A DNA stretch of 54,448 nt, from assembly GCA_018714625.1 (NCBI GenBank), contig DVNE01000042.1, positions 1 to 54,448 on the forward strand, given 5' to 3'. Made by a program: the position numbers and the translations under genes. Positions 18,939 through 29,911 of the stretch are shown here, piece by piece (position 1 is the first letter of the stretch; each line of letters opens with the position of its first letter). A model generated the notes under the pieces. The model was not told where the DNA came from, searched no databases, and was given only the letters and a program-made list of their open reading frames with translations. This stretch comes from Candidatus Coproplasma excrementigallinarum (GTDB lineage: Bacteria; Bacillota; Clostridia; Christensenellales; Borkfalkiaceae).

Positions 18939-19300
18939 TTATTTTTTCTTGGGTTTCAATAAATCCCTTATTTTTCTAGGGAAATATGTAATAACTCTAC
19001 CAACCTTATAGGAAATTGAAGTTTTAATTGCCTGGACATCCTCTTTTGCTGAATCACGCTCTGCCGTCAGAGTAACACTTTTTTCTTTAAGTTGCCTGAT
19101 ATTTTCGTTTATCTCGGAAATATATCGTCTAAGACCTACATTATCTTTTTTGACTTCAGCTACATTTTCAGCGAGGACAGAGTTTTCTTCCTGCGTCTTA
19201 ACAACAGTTTTTTGAAGTATATCATTTGCGGCTTTTATTTGAATAATTTGATTCTGCAGAGCAATGTTATCATTCTCAGCTTTTGCTACGACCAACAGAA
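18939..19300 (-). pseudogene. 3' fragment of a glycosyltransferase-type coiled-coil gene
   Basis: The minus-strand frame encodes about 120 residues of coiled coil (repeated NDNIALQNQIIQIKAAND-like heptads). It ends in SISYKVGRVITYFPRKIRDL, a tail typical of large cell-surface glycosyltransferases. The catalytic part is missing: the frame runs into the antisense of an integrase at about 19290. The sequence is more AT-rich than its surroundings. It is read here as the truncated end of an element-borne or rearranged gene, not a functional protein. Confidence 0.6.
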
Positions 19301-20168
19301 TTCGCAACAAAACGCCCAGCCGACATATTCTCGCTCAGGCAGGAGTGTTACCTTTGCAAGGGTTGCAGAAAACTGGCTGAAGATTAAGGAGCGCACTACA
19401 AAACCTTCAACATACATGGAATATTTACGCTCCTATACGGTAAACTTAAAGCCCGCGTTCGGCAAGTACGGCATAGGTGAAATCACCCGTCAAATGATAC
19501 AGGACTATCTGTTCAGTATTATAGACAGGGGCAGACACCGCACGGCGGAAAAGCTTAAACTTCTGCTCAATTGCATATTCGATTTGGCCGCCGAAGATTA
19601 CGGCATACAGTCGCCGATGAAAAAAATTGTGCTGCCCTACCGCGAAACCAAGAAAGGTATGGCATTCACCAAGGCGGAGGAGAGGAAGCTTGTCGACTTC
19701 TGCATTCAGAAGCAGGACAACGCCGCAAGCTCGGCGCTTTTGGTGCTTCTATACTTCGGACTGAGGCAGAGCGAGCTTAAAACGCTAAGGATTACCGAGG
19801 ACGGGCAGCTCGAGTGCGAAACGAGCAAGGAGCGCATGGGGAGGAATGTTTCCATACGCAGAATACCCTTTACGCCGGTATTCAGAAGGGTTAAGAGCTA
19901 TGTGGATTTTGACAGGGCGCGCGACGCCAACACGCGGACGGTTGCCACAACTTTAAAGCGGTTATTTCCCAATCACCACCCGGACGAACTCAGATATACC
20001 TTTATAAACAGGTGCAAGGAGGCGGGTGTCAACCAGGAATTTGTTATGCTGTGGGATGGGCACTCCTTCGATAAGGATGTTAAAACTTCTGCCGTGGACA
20101 GAGGGTATACAACCTATTCGAAAGAGTACTTAAAGGCCGAAGCTGAAAAGGTAAACTATGAATTTTAG
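19284..20168 (+). pseudogene. Tyrosine recombinase (phage-type integrase), N-terminally truncated
   Basis: A core-binding domain (about TFARVAENWLKIKERT onward) and a catalytic domain are present. The catalytic domain has FGLRQSELK (first Arg), DELRYTF (second Arg), WDGHS (His) and TTYSKEYL (Tyr). The HxxR box has Asp instead of the first His. The N-terminal arm-binding domain is gone. The open frame continues upstream to 19092, but only through the antisense of the glycosyltransferase fragment, and no start with a binding site is seen. It lies beside tRNA-Gln with arm-type repeats in between. It is probably inactive, though a shortened recombinase cannot be ruled out. Confidence 0.75.
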
Positions 20169-22836: not shown

Positions 22837-22865
22837 TTGACAAAACAACAAGTTTGTTATAAAAT
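22837..22865 (+). promoter_or_regulatory. Promoter of the YhhN-ADH/ALDH operon
   Basis: A perfect TTGACA (22837-22842), a 17-bp spacer and TAAAAT (22860-22865), about 75 bases before the ATG. Confidence 0.8.
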
Positions 22866-22940
22866 GACTTTTGTCGCTCTTTAAAAGGGAGCGGCGCAAA
22901 TAAGTGTTCGGGCATAACTTTCCGCCCGAAGGAGTAACTT

Positions 22941-24839
22941 ATGAAGAACAAGTCAGTATTTGTAACGGTCTTTGCTGTTGTATATCTTTTAGTTACGGCG
23001 GTCTTTGCCGCACTGTACATAGTGCTGGACGGCGTCCCTCTCAAGGCGGCGGCAAGCGCGGTATTTCTGTTGTTTTCGGCGGCCATCGTGCTTGCGGCGC
23101 ATAAGCTGAAGTTCAATGGCTACGGTGCGTATAAATTTCTGGTGCTGGCGGCGGCCGCGCTCTGCTTTGCGGGCGACTGCTCGATAGACGCAAACTTCAT
23201 TGCGGGTATGGCTTTGTTCGGCGCGGGGCATATATTCTACATATCGGCGTTCTCCGCGCTCAACGGCGTAGGCTGGCGCACGGTACTGCCCGCCGCAGCC
23301 GTCGGCGCGTTTGGCGTGCTGTGGCTGCTCTTGTACCCTGAGTACAACTTCGGCGCAATACTTCCCGCGGTGATTGTATACGCGGTAATAATAAGCATAA
23401 TGCTCGGCAGAGCGGCGGGAGCGGCATTGGATGGCACTCTGCCCGTGCGCCTTCGCGCGTGCGTAATCGGCGGTGCAGTGCTCTTCTTTATCTCTGATTT
23501 TTTCCTCACTCTCAATACTTTTGCGGGTGGCGGAGAGGTTTACAGGGGGCTCTGCCTTGCAACTTACTATGCGGCGCAGTATCTGCTCACCATTTCCGCC
23601 CTCACGGCGGCCGTAAGCGGAGGGCGCAGGATAAAGCCGCAGATGAATGTGTTTTCAAGGCTGTACTGCCGCGCCTTTCAGGCGGCGTTCAGACTGGTTA
23701 TACCTCTGTTGCCTTACAGACAGCCCACGCCCCTGTCGGGCAGTGCCGAGGTTGCTTTGCTTTTAAAGCAGAACGGAAAGAGGCGCGCGCTCATAGTTAC
23801 CGATAAAAATATATACGCTCTCGGTCTGTGCGAGCCCATAAAGGCCGCGCTTGCGGCGGAGGGAGTGGCGGCAAGCGTCTACTTTGGTACGGTTGCAAAC
23901 CCCACGACTTCCAACTGTGCCGATGCTGCAAAACTCTACCGTGAGGACGGCTGCGACTGTATAATAGCCGTAGGCGGCGGCAGCGCGATGGACTGTGCAA
24001 AGGGCGCAGGATTGCTAATAATAAAGCCGAAACGCACTTTAAAGAGTATGCGCGGCGTTCTCAAAGTATTTGGCAGGCTTCCGCTCTTCATAGCCGTACC
24101 CACCACGGCAGGTACTGGCAGCGAAACGACCATTGCCGCAGTAATAACCGAGGACGAGACGCGCGACAAGTTCACCATAATCTCGTTCTGCCTTGCGCCG
24201 CACTATGCCATGCTCGACCCCGAAATGACGGTGGGACTGCCTCCGCACATAACGTCAACCACGGGTATGGACGCGCTCACTCACGCGGTGGAGGCGTACA
24301 TAGGCCGCTCGACCACCAGCTTTACGCGCAAAATGGCAGTGGAGGCTGTGAGCATAATCCGCACCAATCTGCCCGCGGCATACGCAGACGGACACAACCG
24401 TGAGGCGCGCAGGCAAATGCAGTACGCTGCATATTGCGCGGGCATTGCGTTCACAATATCTTATGTAGGGTATGTGCATGCCGTCGCCCATTCGCTCGGC
24501 GGAAAGTACAACACCCCGCACGGCCTGGCAAACGCCGTCATTCTTCCGTATGTCTTAAGGGAGTACGGCCCCGCCTGCACTAAAAAACTTGCCCGTCTTG
24601 CGCGCAAGAGCGGCGTAGCCCAAGCTAACCTTGGCGACAGCGAGGCGGCAGAACAGTTTATACGCTTTGTTGAAGAGCTCAACAAAAGCATGAATATACC
24701 AGAAAAGCTTAAGGTGGACGAGGCTGACATCCCCGCCCTCGCCGCCCATGCCGATAAAGAGGCCAATCCTCTTTACCCCGTGCCTGCGCTGATGGACGCA
24801 AAGGCACTCAGAAAGATATATTACCTTATCAAGGAGTAA
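22941..24839 (+). CDS. Fusion: YhhN-type lysoplasmalogenase + iron-containing alcohol dehydrogenase
   Basis: Residues 1 to about 225 form an eight-helix YhhN/TMEM86 membrane domain, with the family patterns GHIFYISAF and GAVLFFISDFFLTLNTF. Known members cleave the vinyl-ether bond of lysoplasmalogens and release a fatty aldehyde. Residues of about 255-632 form a group III iron alcohol dehydrogenase. GGGSAMDCAKG (345-355) binds the nicotinamide cofactor and PTTAGTGSE is at 387-395. The metal ligands Asp444, His448, His513 and His527 are all present with the spacing of the Zymomonas enzyme. The fused ADH could convert the released aldehyde to an alcohol at the membrane. AAGGAG precedes the ATG. 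The next gene, an aldehyde dehydrogenase, starts six bases after the stop. Confidence 0.9.
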   Translation: MKNKSVFVTVFAVVYLLVTAVFAALYIVLDGVPLKAAASAVFLLFSAAIVLAAHKLKFNGYGAYKFLVLAAAALCFAGDCSIDANFIAGMALFGAGHIFYISAFSALNGVGWRTVLPAAAVGAFGVLWLLLYPEYNFGAILPAVIVYAVIISIMLGRAAGAALDGTLPVRLRACVIGGAVLFFISDFFLTLNTFAGGGEVYRGLCLATYYAAQYLLTISALTAAVSGGRRIKPQMNVFSRLYCRAFQAAFRLVIPLLPYRQPTPLSGSAEVALLLKQNGKRRALIVTDKNIYALGLCEPIKAALAAEGVAASVYFGTVANPTTSNCADAAKLYREDGCDCIIAVGGGSAMDCAKGAGLLIIKPKRTLKSMRGVLKVFGRLPLFIAVPTTAGTGSETTIAAVITEDETRDKFTIISFCLAPHYAMLDPEMTVGLPPHITSTTGMDALTHAVEAYIGRSTTSFTRKMAVEAVSIIRTNLPAAYADGHNREARRQMQYAAYCAGIAFTISYVGYVHAVAHSLGGKYNTPHGLANAVILPYVLREYGPACTKKLARLARKSGVAQANLGDSEAAEQFIRFVEELNKSMNIPEKLKVDEADIPALAAHADKEANPLYPVPALMDAKALRKIYYLIKE

Positions 24840-24845
24840 CATATT

Positions 24846-26225
24846 ATGGAAAAATCCCAGATAGAGGAGTTGCTTGAAAAACAGCGCGAGTACTTCTCGT
24901 CGGGCGCAACGCTGCCCGCAGGCGCGCGCATAGCCGCCCTAAAAAAGCTTAAATCTACAATAATTGCAAGGGAGAAGGACATCTTCGAAGCTTTGAAAAT
25001 AGACCTCGGCAAGAGCGGGTTCGAAAGTTATATGTGCGAGGTCGGAATGACGCTTTCAGAAATCTCGTATATGCTCAAGCATATCCGCAGTTTTTCGCGC
25101 GATAAGCGCGTACCCACGCCGCCCGCGCAGTATGTGGCCAAGAGCTATATAAAAAAATGTCCCTACGGCTGCACGCTTATAATGAGCCCCTGGAACTATC
25201 CGTTCATGCTCTCGCTCGACCCGCTTGTAGACGCCGTTGCCGCCGGCAATACCGTCATACTCAAGCCTTCGGCGTACTCGCCCGCGACGAGCGCGCTGCT
25301 CGCTGAAATAATCTCGGAGACATTCCCCGAGAAGTACGTGGCAGTCGTCCTCGGCGGCAGGGCAGAAAATTCCGCGCTGCTCGATATGCCGTTTGATAAA
25401 ATTTTCTTCACTGGCAGCGTAGCGGTGGGCAAGGAAGTTATGCGCCGCGCCGCCGAACGCCTTGTGCCCGTCACGCTCGAGCTGGGCGGCAAGAGTCCCT
25501 GCATCGTGGACAAGACGGCCAATATACCCCTTGCCGCAAGGCGCATAGTTTTCGGCAAGTTTTTAAACTGCGGGCAGACCTGCGTCGCGCCCGACTATAT
25601 AGTCGTTCATTCCTCCGTCAAGGATAAGCTCATATCGCAGATTATAGCCGAAATAAAAAGGCAGTACGGCGAGCGCCCGCTTGAAAACGAGGCGTACGGC
25701 AAAATAATCTCGCAAAAGCACTACAACAGAATATGTTCGCTGATAGACGATAAAAAAGTAGTGTTCGGCGGCGAGCGCGAGCCTCAGTCTCAGCGCATTG
25801 CGCCCACCGTTATGGACGGAGTAACGCGCCGGGACGCCGTTATGGGCGAGGAGATTTTTGGTCCGCTGCTGCCCGTGCTCACGTATGACGACGATGAGGC
25901 GCTCATAGCCGACATAAACTCGCAGCCCCATCCGCTCGCGTTCTATGTTTTCTCTTCAGACAAGGCGTTTGTGGAAAAGCTCACAACGCGTTGTCCGTTC
26001 GGCGGCGGCTGTGTAAACGATACAATAATCCACCTTGCCACCTCGCACATGGGCTTCGGCGGCGTGGGTATGAGCGGCATGGGCTCTTACCACGGTAAGG
26101 ACGGCTTCGATTGCTTTACCCACAACAAGTCTATAATGTCAAAGAGTACTATGTTCGACCTGCCCGTGCGCTATCAGCCCTATACCAAAAAGAAGGAAAA
26201 GCTCTTAAGAGGTGTCCTTAAGTAA
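24846..26225 (+). CDS. Aldehyde dehydrogenase (class 3 / fatty aldehyde dehydrogenase-like)
   Basis: The 459-residue protein is an NAD(P)-dependent aldehyde dehydrogenase. Its length and sequence fit the class 3 group, which contains membrane-associated fatty aldehyde dehydrogenases. The general base is Glu212 in ELGGKSP and the catalytic nucleophile is Cys246 in GQTCVAPDY; SPWNYPF and FTGSVAVGK are also typical. It would oxidise an aldehyde to the acid. It starts six bases after the YhhN-ADH fusion gene, with AAGGAGTAA at the end of that gene serving as its ribosome binding site. Together the two genes offer both fates for an aldehyde released from lysoplasmalogen. A strong terminator follows. 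Confidence 0.93.
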   Translation: MEKSQIEELLEKQREYFSSGATLPAGARIAALKKLKSTIIAREKDIFEALKIDLGKSGFESYMCEVGMTLSEISYMLKHIRSFSRDKRVPTPPAQYVAKSYIKKCPYGCTLIMSPWNYPFMLSLDPLVDAVAAGNTVILKPSAYSPATSALLAEIISETFPEKYVAVVLGGRAENSALLDMPFDKIFFTGSVAVGKEVMRRAAERLVPVTLELGGKSPCIVDKTANIPLAARRIVFGKFLNCGQTCVAPDYIVVHSSVKDKLISQIIAEIKRQYGERPLENEAYGKIISQKHYNRICSLIDDKKVVFGGEREPQSQRIAPTVMDGVTRRDAVMGEEIFGPLLPVLTYDDDEALIADINSQPHPLAFYVFSSDKAFVEKLTTRCPFGGGCVNDTIIHLATSHMGFGGVGMSGMGSYHGKDGFDCFTHNKSIMSKSTMFDLPVRYQPYTKKKEKLLRGVLK

Positions 26226-26340
26226 TTTTTCCGCGCAAAAAGTGCAGTTTGCGCGGCGTGTAAAACTGTGTAAAATGGCGCAGACGTAAACTTTTGTGTC
26301 GGTGCGCTGATATGGTTTTGCCGTGGTTATATTTTAATTA

Positions 26341-26377
26341 AAGCGTGCGGCGCGCAATATGCGCGCCGCACGCTTTT
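26341..26377 (+). terminator. Terminator of the YhhN-ADH/ALDH operon
   Basis: A 13-bp perfect stem (26343-26355 with 26361-26373) has an AATAT loop and is followed by TTTT. Confidence 0.8.
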
Positions 26378-27420: not shown

Positions 27421-27993
27421 ATGGCAGACGGGCTGCAGTTTGAAGATGACAAGCTCGCCATAACGGCAAAGGCCGGGATGGCAGACGAAATTCTGAATAT
27501 CTACAAGGTTTTCGGCTGGGAAGTAAAGGGCAGATATGACGACGGGCAATATGGCGATATCGTGCATATCAATTTTTCGCGCCCTCACCGCATTGCGGGC
27601 AAGGACAGGCTTCAGCTCCTTCAGGTGCGGTTTGAAGTAGCTTTAAACTTCCTCGGCCGCGCCCACAGAATGATATTCCTGCGCGCCGTGATTTTCGGGG
27701 TGCTTATAGCGCTCGTCGGGCTGGCTCTTGCTGTCTACGGTGCGTTCGTTATGGCATATTCCACTACCAATCTGTTTTTTGCAGGCGGAATAGTGCTGAT
27801 ATGCGCGGGCGTGCTTTTCTTTGTGATAGCAGGACTTACGGCCAACAAGCTGTATGTGCAGGACGGGCAGAAGTACGGCGTTCTCGCCACAGTTTTAAAG
27901 GAAAATATTACATCCATTGTCAACGAGGCCTCGCTCATAACGGGCATAACCGCAGGCCGGGACGGCGGAAAGGGGGCGGAAGATGCGCATTGA
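27421..27993 (+). CDS. Membrane protein with N-terminal soluble domain, function unknown
   Basis: The 190-residue protein has a soluble N-terminal part of about 80 residues, two transmembrane helices (about 83-105 and 117-139) and a soluble C-terminal part of about 50 residues. The order resembles a membrane hairpin presenting two cytoplasmic domains. No family was recognised. It overlaps the PLD gene by 11 bases, which indicates coupled translation and a possible functional link to phospholipid synthesis. GAGGAG and AAAGGG precede the ATG. Confidence 0.65.
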   Translation: MADGLQFEDDKLAITAKAGMADEILNIYKVFGWEVKGRYDDGQYGDIVHINFSRPHRIAGKDRLQLLQVRFEVALNFLGRAHRMIFLRAVIFGVLIALVGLALAVYGAFVMAYSTTNLFFAGGIVLICAGVLFFVIAGLTANKLYVQDGQKYGVLATVLKENITSIVNEASLITGITAGRDGGKGAEDAH

Positions 27994-29911
27994 AAACAGA
28001 AAACTAAAGCGTCAGTACGCCGCTCATATGCCCAAGTCGCCCGACGGCGACATAATAAGAATAAAGACCGAGCGCAAGGGCATAGGCAAAATGAAGGGTA
28101 TGCTCATACTGCTTGTTGCCCTCCTTCAGCTGGGTTTGCTCGTCTTTCTGCACCTGCAGCTGGTAAACGCCTTCCGCTGGTATCTGATTTTTTCCGTCGT
28201 TATGGACATTGTCACCTGCCTGTATCTTCTCGGCTCTTCAAAGAACGGCCGCGCCAAAGCGGTGTGGATAATGCTCATACTCGTACTCTTCCCCGTAGGT
28301 TTTTTAATCTTTTTTCTTTCGGACGAAAGAATATTTTTCCGCTCTTCGCGCAAGCGTTACAAAAAAATACTTATTGCCTCTTCAGACCTCCCGCTTAAAA
28401 AATGGGAGGGGGATATGCCCAAATTAACGGCGCTTGCCTGCGCTTATATCAAAAACACCACGGGATATATGCCCGTAAAAAACACCGCTGCAAAATACTA
28501 CCCCTCCGGCGCGTCCGCATTTGACGATATGCTTGCCGACTGTGCCTCGGCGCAGAGGTTCATTTTCATAGAATACTTTATAATAGCCGAAGGCGCGCTC
28601 TTTTCGCGGCTGTTCGGCGTGCTTAAGGAGCGTGCCGCCGCGGGCGTTGACGTGCGCATAATTTACGACGATATGGGCTCGAGCGGCCGACTTCCCCGCT
28701 CGCTCAAAAAGCAGGTGCGCGCCGCGGGCATACAGATGTACACATTCAACAAGCTTGTGCCGCTTTATAAAATAGGCATGAACTACCGCGACCACCGCAA
28801 AATAACAGTTGTTGACGGCAGAATAGCCTATACGGGCGGTATAAACATAGCCGACGAGTATGTCAATGAAAAGCGCCTCTACGGCTACTGGAAGGATAAC
28901 GCCGTGCGCATGGAGGGCGACGCAGCCCAGGGCTTTACGCTCATGTTTTTAAGGCAGTGGGAGTTCGTCACCAGAAAACGCTTCGACTATCTTCCATTCC
29001 TTCAGTCTGCGGAGGAGGGCGTTTCTTCTGCGGAGCAAAATACGGCAGAGGGCGTGGAAAATCTGCCCGACAGTGCCGAAGACCTGCCAGACTATTTGGA
29101 AAGCGCGGCTGAAAAGACTTTTATAAATGCAGAGGCTACCTGCAAAACGCAATCCGACGGCCTGGAAAACCCGCCAAAACCCTGTACAGAGGAGCTGCCC
29201 GAGGGCGCAGAAAGGGCGGCAGAACCCTGCATAGAGACCCTGCCCGACATTGCTGAAAATCTTTCAGACCGTTTGAAAAACCCGCCCGCAGTTTGCGCGG
29301 AAAGCTCGCCCGACAGTGCCGAAGACCTGCCCGCGGCAGAGACCTCTTTAAAAAGCACAGAGCAGGAGAGCGGAATATTTCTTCCATATGCCTCGGGGCT
29401 TGAATACCGCGACCCTGTCGTGCGTGACGTGTATGCGGGCGTACTCTCTCAGGCAAGGGAGCGGCTGTGGATAATGACGCCCTACTTCGTCCCCGACGAA
29501 ACCATAACCAACATGCTCACATCAAAGGCGCGCAGCGGAGTAGATGTGCGCATAGTACTCCCCGGTGTGCCCGATAAGGCATATGTCTACCTCATTTCGC
29601 TCGACAATGCCGATAAACTCACGCGGAGCGGCGTAAAGGTGTACACAATGTCCGACGCGTTTGTGCATACAAAATCTGTGCTCATAGAAAATTGCGCGGT
29701 AATAGGCTCTGCCAACTTCGACCTCCGTTCCTTCTTTCAGCAGTACGAAAACGCCGTCTATACAGACGATAAAACGGTTATGCGCGGTCTGGAGGCCGAC
29801 TTTGAGGCGACCTTCCCCGAGTGTGTTCAGCGCAATTATGTAAAAGGCAAAACCCGTCCGCTGCGCACATTGCTCACGGCGATATTGCAGATTTTTGCAC
29901 CTATGATGTAG
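27983..29911 (+). CDS. Cardiolipin synthase-like phospholipase D protein with a long acidic insert
   Basis: The 642-residue protein has two N-terminal membrane helices and two phospholipase D domains, the layout of cardiolipin synthase, which joins two phosphatidylglycerols. The first HKD motif is intact (His271, Lys273, Asp278). The second reads HTKSVLIE (His562, Lys564, Glu569), with Glu in place of Asp. Between the domains, residues of about 345-455 form an acidic Glu/Ser/Pro/Ala-rich insert made of degenerate repeats. Its DNA has a 24-bp exact direct repeat (from 29065 and from 29308), 243 bp apart and in frame. This explains why the protein is about 130 residues longer than usual. Its start overlaps the upstream membrane protein gene. 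Confidence 0.85.
   Translation: MRIENRKLKRQYAAHMPKSPDGDIIRIKTERKGIGKMKGMLILLVALLQLGLLVFLHLQLVNAFRWYLIFSVVMDIVTCLYLLGSSKNGRAKAVWIMLILVLFPVGFLIFFLSDERIFFRSSRKRYKKILIASSDLPLKKWEGDMPKLTALACAYIKNTTGYMPVKNTAAKYYPSGASAFDDMLADCASAQRFIFIEYFIIAEGALFSRLFGVLKERAAAGVDVRIIYDDMGSSGRLPRSLKKQVRAAGIQMYTFNKLVPLYKIGMNYRDHRKITVVDGRIAYTGGINIADEYVNEKRLYGYWKDNAVRMEGDAAQGFTLMFLRQWEFVTRKRFDYLPFLQSAEEGVSSAEQNTAEGVENLPDSAEDLPDYLESAAEKTFINAEATCKTQSDGLENPPKPCTEELPEGAERAAEPCIETLPDIAENLSDRLKNPPAVCAESSPDSAEDLPAAETSLKSTEQESGIFLPYASGLEYRDPVVRDVYAGVLSQARERLWIMTPYFVPDETITNMLTSKARSGVDVRIVLPGVPDKAYVYLISLDNADKLTRSGVKVYTMSDAFVHTKSVLIENCAVIGSANFDLRSFFQQYENAVYTDDKTVMRGLEADFEATFPECVQRNYVKGKTRPLRTLLTAILQIFAPMM

Follow-up and report, generated by a model that had tools for sequence, protein, structure and literature searches.

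A recurrent fusion of YhhN with an iron alcohol dehydrogenase next to a class 3 aldehyde dehydrogenase: a putative plasmalogen-aldehyde processing unit in Candidatus Coproplasma excrementigallinarum and its relatives

The YhhN lysoplasmalogenases are among the closest described relatives of the system reported here, and their activity is established for human and bacterial members according to the available passages of PMC11994398 and PMC9052158. In a 54,448-nucleotide stretch of DNA from Candidatus Coproplasma excrementigallinarum (contig DVNE01000042.1 of assembly GCA_018714625.1, hereafter the window), a YhhN domain forms a single polypeptide with an iron-type alcohol dehydrogenase (ADH), and the gene for a class 3 aldehyde dehydrogenase (ALDH) follows directly. 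The window's YhhN is like the described enzymes (human TMEM86A/B and the YhhN proteins of Legionella and Mycobacterium) in its Pfam domain, its eight long helices and its eight residues. These passages mention no oxidoreductase fusion, whereas here YhhN shares its polypeptide with an iron ADH, and in relatives the chain includes an ALDH as well.

AdhE consists of an N-terminal CoA-acylating ALDH followed by an ADH. The matches of our ADH fall at AdhE residues ~450-870, but the arrangement is different, as the ADH comes first, the ALDH is of class 3 and a membrane hydrolase stands ahead of both. The AdhE order was not encountered among the 12 two-enzyme chains we found (10 triple fusions and two ADH-ALDH chains), all of which have the ADH first. 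The ALDH shares its class with human fatty aldehyde dehydrogenase and with AldE, reported in the accessible part of PMC3594298 as a class 3 enzyme for fatty aldehydes in cyanobacteria; it differs in having no membrane tail and in sharing an operon with YhhN-ADH. PlsA/PlsR has a counterpart in the window's genome, a two-gene pair of the same domain order, but this pair would represent the opposite, synthetic arm and lies on another contig. The sequence-only reading knew of no described pathway with such a fusion, and the literature searched gave no description either, an absence that means little as subscription papers were mostly outside its scope. The terms YhhN, alcohol dehydrogenase and fusion were combined in PMC9052158 alone, and in its available passages "fusion" refers to a GFP fusion or to membrane fusion.

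The YhhN-ADH protein is encoded by one open frame of 632 amino acids on the forward strand (22941..24839), with both parts recognised by Pfam. After a gap of six bases it is followed on the same strand by the ALDH gene (24846..26225), coding for 459 amino acids. The coordinates, the spacing and the ADH residues named in the sequence-only reading all turned out to be correct, and the observed fusion with its adjacent ALDH is confirmed. The AlphaFold2 model of the fusion (pLDDT 88.9, pTM 0.79) is confident for the eight YhhN helices, a linking helix and the ADH fold.

YhhN, ADH and ALDH form a recurrent unit. We surveyed 93 genomes of the genus using the ADH part as query (threshold E<=1e-80) and inspected the loci around all matches, several of which end at contig ends. 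Matches were recovered from 42 genomes, and an ALDH was adjacent or fused in every one of them. YhhN was fused in 21 of the 42 loci, as YhhN-ADH with a separate ALDH in 15 and as a single YhhN-ADH-ALDH chain of ~1,090 amino acids in six (G009, G076, G103, G098, G081 and G093). Two loci contained a single ADH-ALDH chain (G003, and G022 with its 5' end cut), and 19 had separate ADH and ALDH genes without a fused YhhN, one of them (G020) with a YhhN gene elsewhere. By eye, no YhhN was seen in the three forward frames of the 429 bases 5' of the G003 ADH-ALDH gene, where the contig starts. A 43rd locus, in G013, is a YhhN-ADH fusion with its 3' end cut by the contig end; counting this one and the window, the YhhN-ADH join is found in 22 genus loci. 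A scan of named genomes matched the ADH part only, in two genomes (L015 and L016). The search for YhhN-ADH fusions and their neighbours, which had been put forward as a check, returned YhhN-ADH, YhhN-ADH-ALDH and ADH-ALDH fusions as well as neighbouring genes.

The unit extends beyond the genus. Within a sample of 396 genomes of the order, 27 carry YhhN of this type, defined by a score above 170 bits (the next best score was 97 bits). It is fused to ADH in 12 of them (G000, the window's genome, G081, G068, G019, G417, G270, G302, G475, G364, G229, G241 and G252) and adjoins ADH and/or ALDH genes in eight. The gene order in these eight is ADH-ALDH-YhhN (G325, G314, G460), YhhN-ADH-ALDH (G443), ADH-YhhN (G373, G295) or ALDH with YhhN (G469, G399); in G274 three genes separate YhhN from ADH. 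The YhhN-ADH join was also seen in a second genus of the window's family and in the families f28 and f32. In a sample of 398 genomes of the phylum we found, besides the window, six weak YhhN matches, none of them with ADH or ALDH within 1.5 kb.

The ADH tree (60 rows, quick method, SH-aLRT only) requires at least 10 changes in the YhhN-fused state and at least four in the ALDH-fused state, losses included; without the contig-cut rows G022 and G013 the counts are nine and three. Three-part chains appear in three places of the tree: G302 with G475, G009, and a group around G093, G081 and G103. This last group otherwise belongs to the window's genus, but G417 (family f32) and G270 (another genus) are nested in it, which suggests transfer of the whole gene. 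That the three enzymes were joined repeatedly and their gene order shuffled is our chief reason for thinking that they share a metabolite, and a long-chain aldehyde would be the metabolite that fits all three. The G417 triple fusion (L171:5340-8615) was also found to have CBAH-like and MarR-like neighbours, and here a whole lipid module has likely moved horizontally between families.

The YhhN part covers amino acids 1-234 of the fusion (22941..23642, forward strand). Pfam YhhN (PF07947) matches amino acids 47-219 with 88.2 bits against a curated cut-off of 25.6. The model places eight helices here (2-29, 32-55, 62-81, 86-107, 112-131, 138-163, 169-194 and 198-226), and the fold is described by these helices alone, the structural comparison having taken in residues 248-632 only; a sequence search for a solved YhhN structure found none. 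All eight residues tested in human TMEM86A/B are present, namely K35 (outside the Pfam match), G78, D79, H97, G178, S185, D186 and Y209. They were matched to TMEM86A positions via spacing and motif, TMEM86A itself not being in the alignment. The list comes from the accessible part of PMC11994398, in which the first Gly is of little effect. Seven of the eight are kept in 24/24 rows, window included, and H97 in 22/24 (N in G002 and G116). Loss of the YhhN catalytic residues had been named as something that would undermine the salvage idea; the residues are kept, and the objection fails so far. The domain is thus predicted to be a lysoplasmalogenase that splits the vinyl ether of lysoplasmalogen.

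Two other YhhN genes came up in the same alignment. The window's genome has a second, divergent YhhN gene outside the unit (L028:4700-5446, on G000:C16), in which G78 is replaced by A, H97 by Q and S185 by C. In the yhhN of E. coli MG1655 (L029:5752-6378) an Asn replaces the second catalytic Asp (ISN, not ISD), and this protein may be inactive or differently employed.

The ADH part (amino acids 235-632; 23643..24836, forward strand) shows the fold of the iron-dependent (group III) alcohol dehydrogenase family. Its Pfam matches, Fe-ADH at amino acids 270-427 (141 bits) and ADH_Fe_C at 439-626 (160.7 bits), are over the cut-offs. Asp444, His448, His513 and His527, which by analogy with FucO we take to be the metal ligands, are conserved in 44 of the 45 rows of the alignment, which includes the window; the remaining row is gapped there, and among the aligned ADHs that of G013 is truncated by the contig end. 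The unfused ADHs of relatives begin with a conserved stretch, mostly of the type MN-hydrophobic-KK-YCR-FQ...LPYR. In the window this stretch comes directly at Met235, so the fusion point lies immediately before the original ADH start. Just after Met235 the model has a helix that is amphipathic by its hydrophobic moment (amino acids 237-256; 23649..23708, forward strand). The moment of amino acids 236-253 is 0.66, compared with 0.49 for the 95th percentile of ADH 18-mers, and the start stretch has 0.40-0.68 in those 29 unfused rows that extend into it. As the start stretch is amphipathic even when unfused, the ADH looks membrane-associated without YhhN, which would suit a long-chain substrate. 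The proposal that a reactive aldehyde is handled at the membrane is therefore helped in part: the amphipathic helix would place the ADH there, but its substrate and direction are unproven.

The ALDH scores 312.5 bits with Pfam Aldedh, above the cut-off, and belongs to class 3 by sequence. Chains of the class 3 type (3sza, 4qgk and 1ad3) reach 368-384 bits, the best of all chains is 6k0z with 454, and the steroid, salicylaldehyde and betaine ALDH types score at most 228 bits. The individual values are 383.6 bits for 3sza, a dimeric NADP-preferring enzyme, and 379 bits for 4qgk, a fatty aldehyde dehydrogenase; these are presumably human ALDH3A1 and ALDH3A2. These scores, together with the coordinates, bear out the earlier description of a class 3-like ALDH beginning six bases on. 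Cys246, Glu212 and Asn117 are kept in 43/43 rows, window included. The window's ALDH has no strongly hydrophobic segment (19-residue maximum 1.35) and hence no membrane-spanning tail.

Taken together, we consider it reasonably probable that the three enzymes form a membrane-bound unit for processing plasmalogen aldehydes, leading from lysoplasmalogen through a fatty aldehyde to a recovered fatty acid, with the ADH balancing redox. In this scheme YhhN would hydrolyse the vinyl ether of lysoplasmalogen to a long-chain fatty aldehyde and a glycerophospho-headgroup, and the tethered iron ADH and the operon-mate ALDH would take over the aldehyde at the surface of the membrane. The ALDH would oxidise aldehyde to fatty acid, and the ADH would turn a share of the aldehyde into fatty alcohol. 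We propose that NAD(P)H is recycled between the two, an aldehyde dismutation without net redox cost; because the ADH returns oxidised cofactor, an anaerobe could run the step without an electron sink. The fatty acid would be reused, probably through FakB (DegV)/FakA activation, since these bacteria seem to lack fatty acid synthesis of their own. We infer all catalytic steps, the channelling and the direction of flow. A laboratory assay in the passages of PMC11994398 pairs TMEM86B with yeast alcohol dehydrogenase, and the fusion looks like the same pairing on a single chain.

The apparent need for fatty acids was examined with one FabF-type domain (PF02801) in 22 carriers of this YhhN, drawn from the genus, g27, f32 and f28. 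Of these, 19 have linked ADH/ALDH genes and three do not (G307, G335 and G390). PF02801 is missing in 21/22, including G000, G029, G081, G270, G475, G307 and 15 f28 genomes; completeness is 97% or more in 18/22 genomes, and the control matches 10/14 known genomes. The lone match, in G417, occurs twice within an 803-amino-acid frame, unlike a normal FabF. This suggests that these families have lost fatty acid synthesis and need salvaged fatty chains, and if they indeed cannot elongate fatty acids, each alkenyl chain would be worth recovering. A DegV gene lies near the unit in five of 68 loci (PF02645, 216-240 bits in the five). It is co-directional within the cluster in G009, G460 and G469, divergent in G252 and four genes off in G006. 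Among the DegV proteins is FakB, whose role is to present fatty acids for their activation; DegV genes are often multi-copy, so these neighbours are suggestive only. The missing FabF-type domain and the DegV neighbours favour oxidation to fatty acid as the useful outcome, a choice that the sequence-only reading had left open.

Regarding the origin of the plasmalogen, the situation is more complex. Plasmalogen synthesis genes had been proposed as something to look for, and a PlsA/PlsR-like pair is present in the window's genome (G000:C8, L111), so that an organism lacking plasmalogens, another objection named beforehand, does not apply so far. The first gene of the pair codes for a 978-amino-acid protein that combines two BcrAD_BadFG stretches with DUF2229 (245 bits), and the second for a 424-amino-acid partner with a weak DUF2229 match of 21.7 bits, below the cut-off. 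The pair resembles plsA-plsR, the plasmalogen (or alkyl-ether) synthase of anaerobes, a likeness judged by domain order. The available passages describe plsA-plsR as a two-gene operon in C. perfringens (PMC8788747) with the parts Act1, Act2, Red1 and Red2 (PMC12838417), and state that PlsA and the alkyl-ether enzyme Ger are inseparable by sequence, validated Ger proteins having two activation domains (PMC13274423). PF09989 is found in 87/93 genus genomes and in 21/22 of the YhhN-fused ones, but the control also matches Thermus composti and Deinobacterium chartae, and the probe is therefore not specific to plasmalogen makers. The HGD-D family PF06050, used as a PlsA probe, gave no match in the window's genome and weak matches in 12/93 genomes of the genus. 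With PF09989 near-universal in the genus and the full-length form missing in f28, no general association of the unit with PlsA was found. In six genomes (G025, G001, G028, G113, G089 and G062) the ADH locus lies 9-16 kb from the plsA-like gene on one contig; this closeness is probably shared synteny and we do not take it as evidence. In the window's genus the substrate could be the cell's own plasmalogen, and in f28 it would come from the surroundings. The available part of PMC9052158 offers a precedent, as MtbYhhN cleaves lysoplasmalogen in a species without plasmalogens of its own.

Several observations weigh against a plasmalogen-aldehyde processing unit. In 21/42 genus loci (one of them, G022, cut by the contig end) no YhhN is fused to the ADH-ALDH pair, so the pair is of use on its own. 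Conversely, no ADH or ALDH was found near YhhN in six of the 27 order-sample genomes (G307, G335, G374, G461, G356 and G390) within the stretches examined, ~1-7 kb per side and shorter at contig ends. Others have only an ALDH beside YhhN (G469, G399) or only an ADH (G274, G373, G295). None of the 15 f28 genomes with this YhhN has a full-length PlsA-like gene (G335 has just a 312-amino-acid activase), and plasmalogen may there come from outside the cell; G009 carries the triple fusion and has no PF09989 match at 93% completeness. The FabF absence rests on one domain, the window's genome is 75.7% complete, and the three tested genomes without nearby ADH/ALDH genes count here too. Finally, a choloylglycine-hydrolase/C45-like gene adjoins 11/68 loci, YhhN-fused and YhhN-less alike (by similarity cluster, with Pfam on two), and is not explained by the unit. 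The salvage reading thus gains from recurrence, the kept residues and the PlsA/PlsR-like pair, while strict self-salvage is weakened by f28 and by the YhhN-less loci; its link to plasmalogen is unproven, and the interpretation as a whole is partly supported and strengthened.

The alternative that survives best, which we nevertheless regard as unlikely, is protection: the unit would clear toxic lysoplasmalogen of host or neighbours and detoxify the aldehyde, with fatty acid recovery incidental. Reduction of an aldehyde to an alcohol by ADH is a standard detoxification, the unit occurs in f28, where a full-length PlsA-like gene is missing, and a MarR-like regulator lies near 9/68 loci (Pfam on three). 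MtbYhhN is moreover proposed, in the available passages of PMC9052158, to protect the membrane in a species without own plasmalogens. The DegV neighbours and the missing FabF-type domain, however, fit nutrient recovery better, and the window's genus probably makes the ether lipid itself.

We find it distinctly doubtful that YhhN serves to anchor the protein in the membrane or hydrolyses a different lipid, with the ADH-ALDH pair oxidising alcohols or aldehydes from alkyl ethers, wax esters or lipid peroxidation. The loci at which ADH and ALDH are separate genes and YhhN is not fused (19/42 in the genus) and the amphipathic helix of the ADH itself, present in the window as well as in the 29 unfused rows that extend that far, speak for this, as does the possibility that the PlsA-like enzyme with its two activation domains is a Ger (passages of PMC13274423). 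But the residues relevant for activity are kept in the fused YhhN, which is not expected of an anchor, YhhN joins the ADH-ALDH pair in several gene orders, and an ADH with its own membrane helix makes an eight-helix anchor unnecessary. A dead anchor in particular is weakened by the residue conservation.

A synthetic direction, in which the ADH oxidises exogenous fatty alcohol and YhhN works in reverse to put the aldehyde into an ether lipid, is highly improbable. We know of YhhN only as a hydrolase, and formation of a vinyl ether from an aldehyde in water is unfavourable. The available passages of PMC9702350 do report that bacteria used long-chain aldehydes for plasmalogen synthesis, but also that alcohols were unused, and PlsA/PlsR makes plasmalogen from diacyl lipid. 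An assembly chimera or mis-joined frame can practically be dismissed, despite the draft genome of 60 contigs from which the window comes, because the same join recurs in 21 other genus loci and in families f28 and f32, with both halves keeping their residues.

A sigma-70-like promoter, TTGACA-17-TAAAAT, lies 5' of the operon (22837..22865, forward strand) with 11/12 consensus matches, a consensus match only. AGGAG ribosome-binding sites, read from the sequence, precede the fusion gene (22930..22934, forward strand) and the ALDH gene (24832..24836, forward strand), the latter ending right before the stop codon of the fusion gene. Past the ALDH gene, a 17-pair hairpin with a short T run behind it (26340..26376, forward strand; -34.3 kcal/mol, z -6.1) is absent from the terminator-scan list, and it probably marks the end of the two-gene operon. 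The operon is flanked by neither a C45-like nor a MarR-like gene. In the other genomes the C45-type neighbour is an Ntn hydrolase with an N-terminal hydrophobic stretch (L023:9977-11257 (-), L025:4864-6123 (-), L171:4067-5323 (+) and eight more loci), possibly a lipid-amide hydrolase of the same pathway. Farther out in the window, a phage-type integrase gene lies 2.8 kb 5' of the operon (19092-20168, forward strand) and a small mobile element may be present near it. About 1.8 kb past the operon, a gene (27983-29911, forward strand) encodes a cardiolipin-synthase-like phospholipase D (PLD) protein (272.7 bits, cut-off 290), in which a long Ser/Glu/Ala-rich insert separates the two PLD regions.

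The reading of the unit as a plasmalogen-aldehyde processor can be taken further, tentatively and at somewhat less than even chances. It may be a dedicated plasmalogen-catabolic metabolon, built repeatedly by fusion, which would cleave lysoplasmalogen at the membrane, turn the aldehyde on the spot into recoverable fatty acid and alcohol by redox-neutral dismutation, and so feed the membrane synthesis of fatty-acid auxotrophs; makers would close the cycle with PlsA/PlsR and non-makers would scavenge foreign plasmalogens. Bacterial plasmalogen synthesis is treated as recently explained (PlsA/PlsR) in the passages available from the literature, in which anaerobic breakdown and the fate of the aldehyde are unaddressed. 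The unit names three candidate enzymes at once, and relatives offer a single chain to purify, which makes the question of plasmalogen breakdown testable with existing assays. If the hosts are fatty-acid auxotrophs, plasmalogens may be a lipid resource shared among anaerobes, perhaps with their surroundings.

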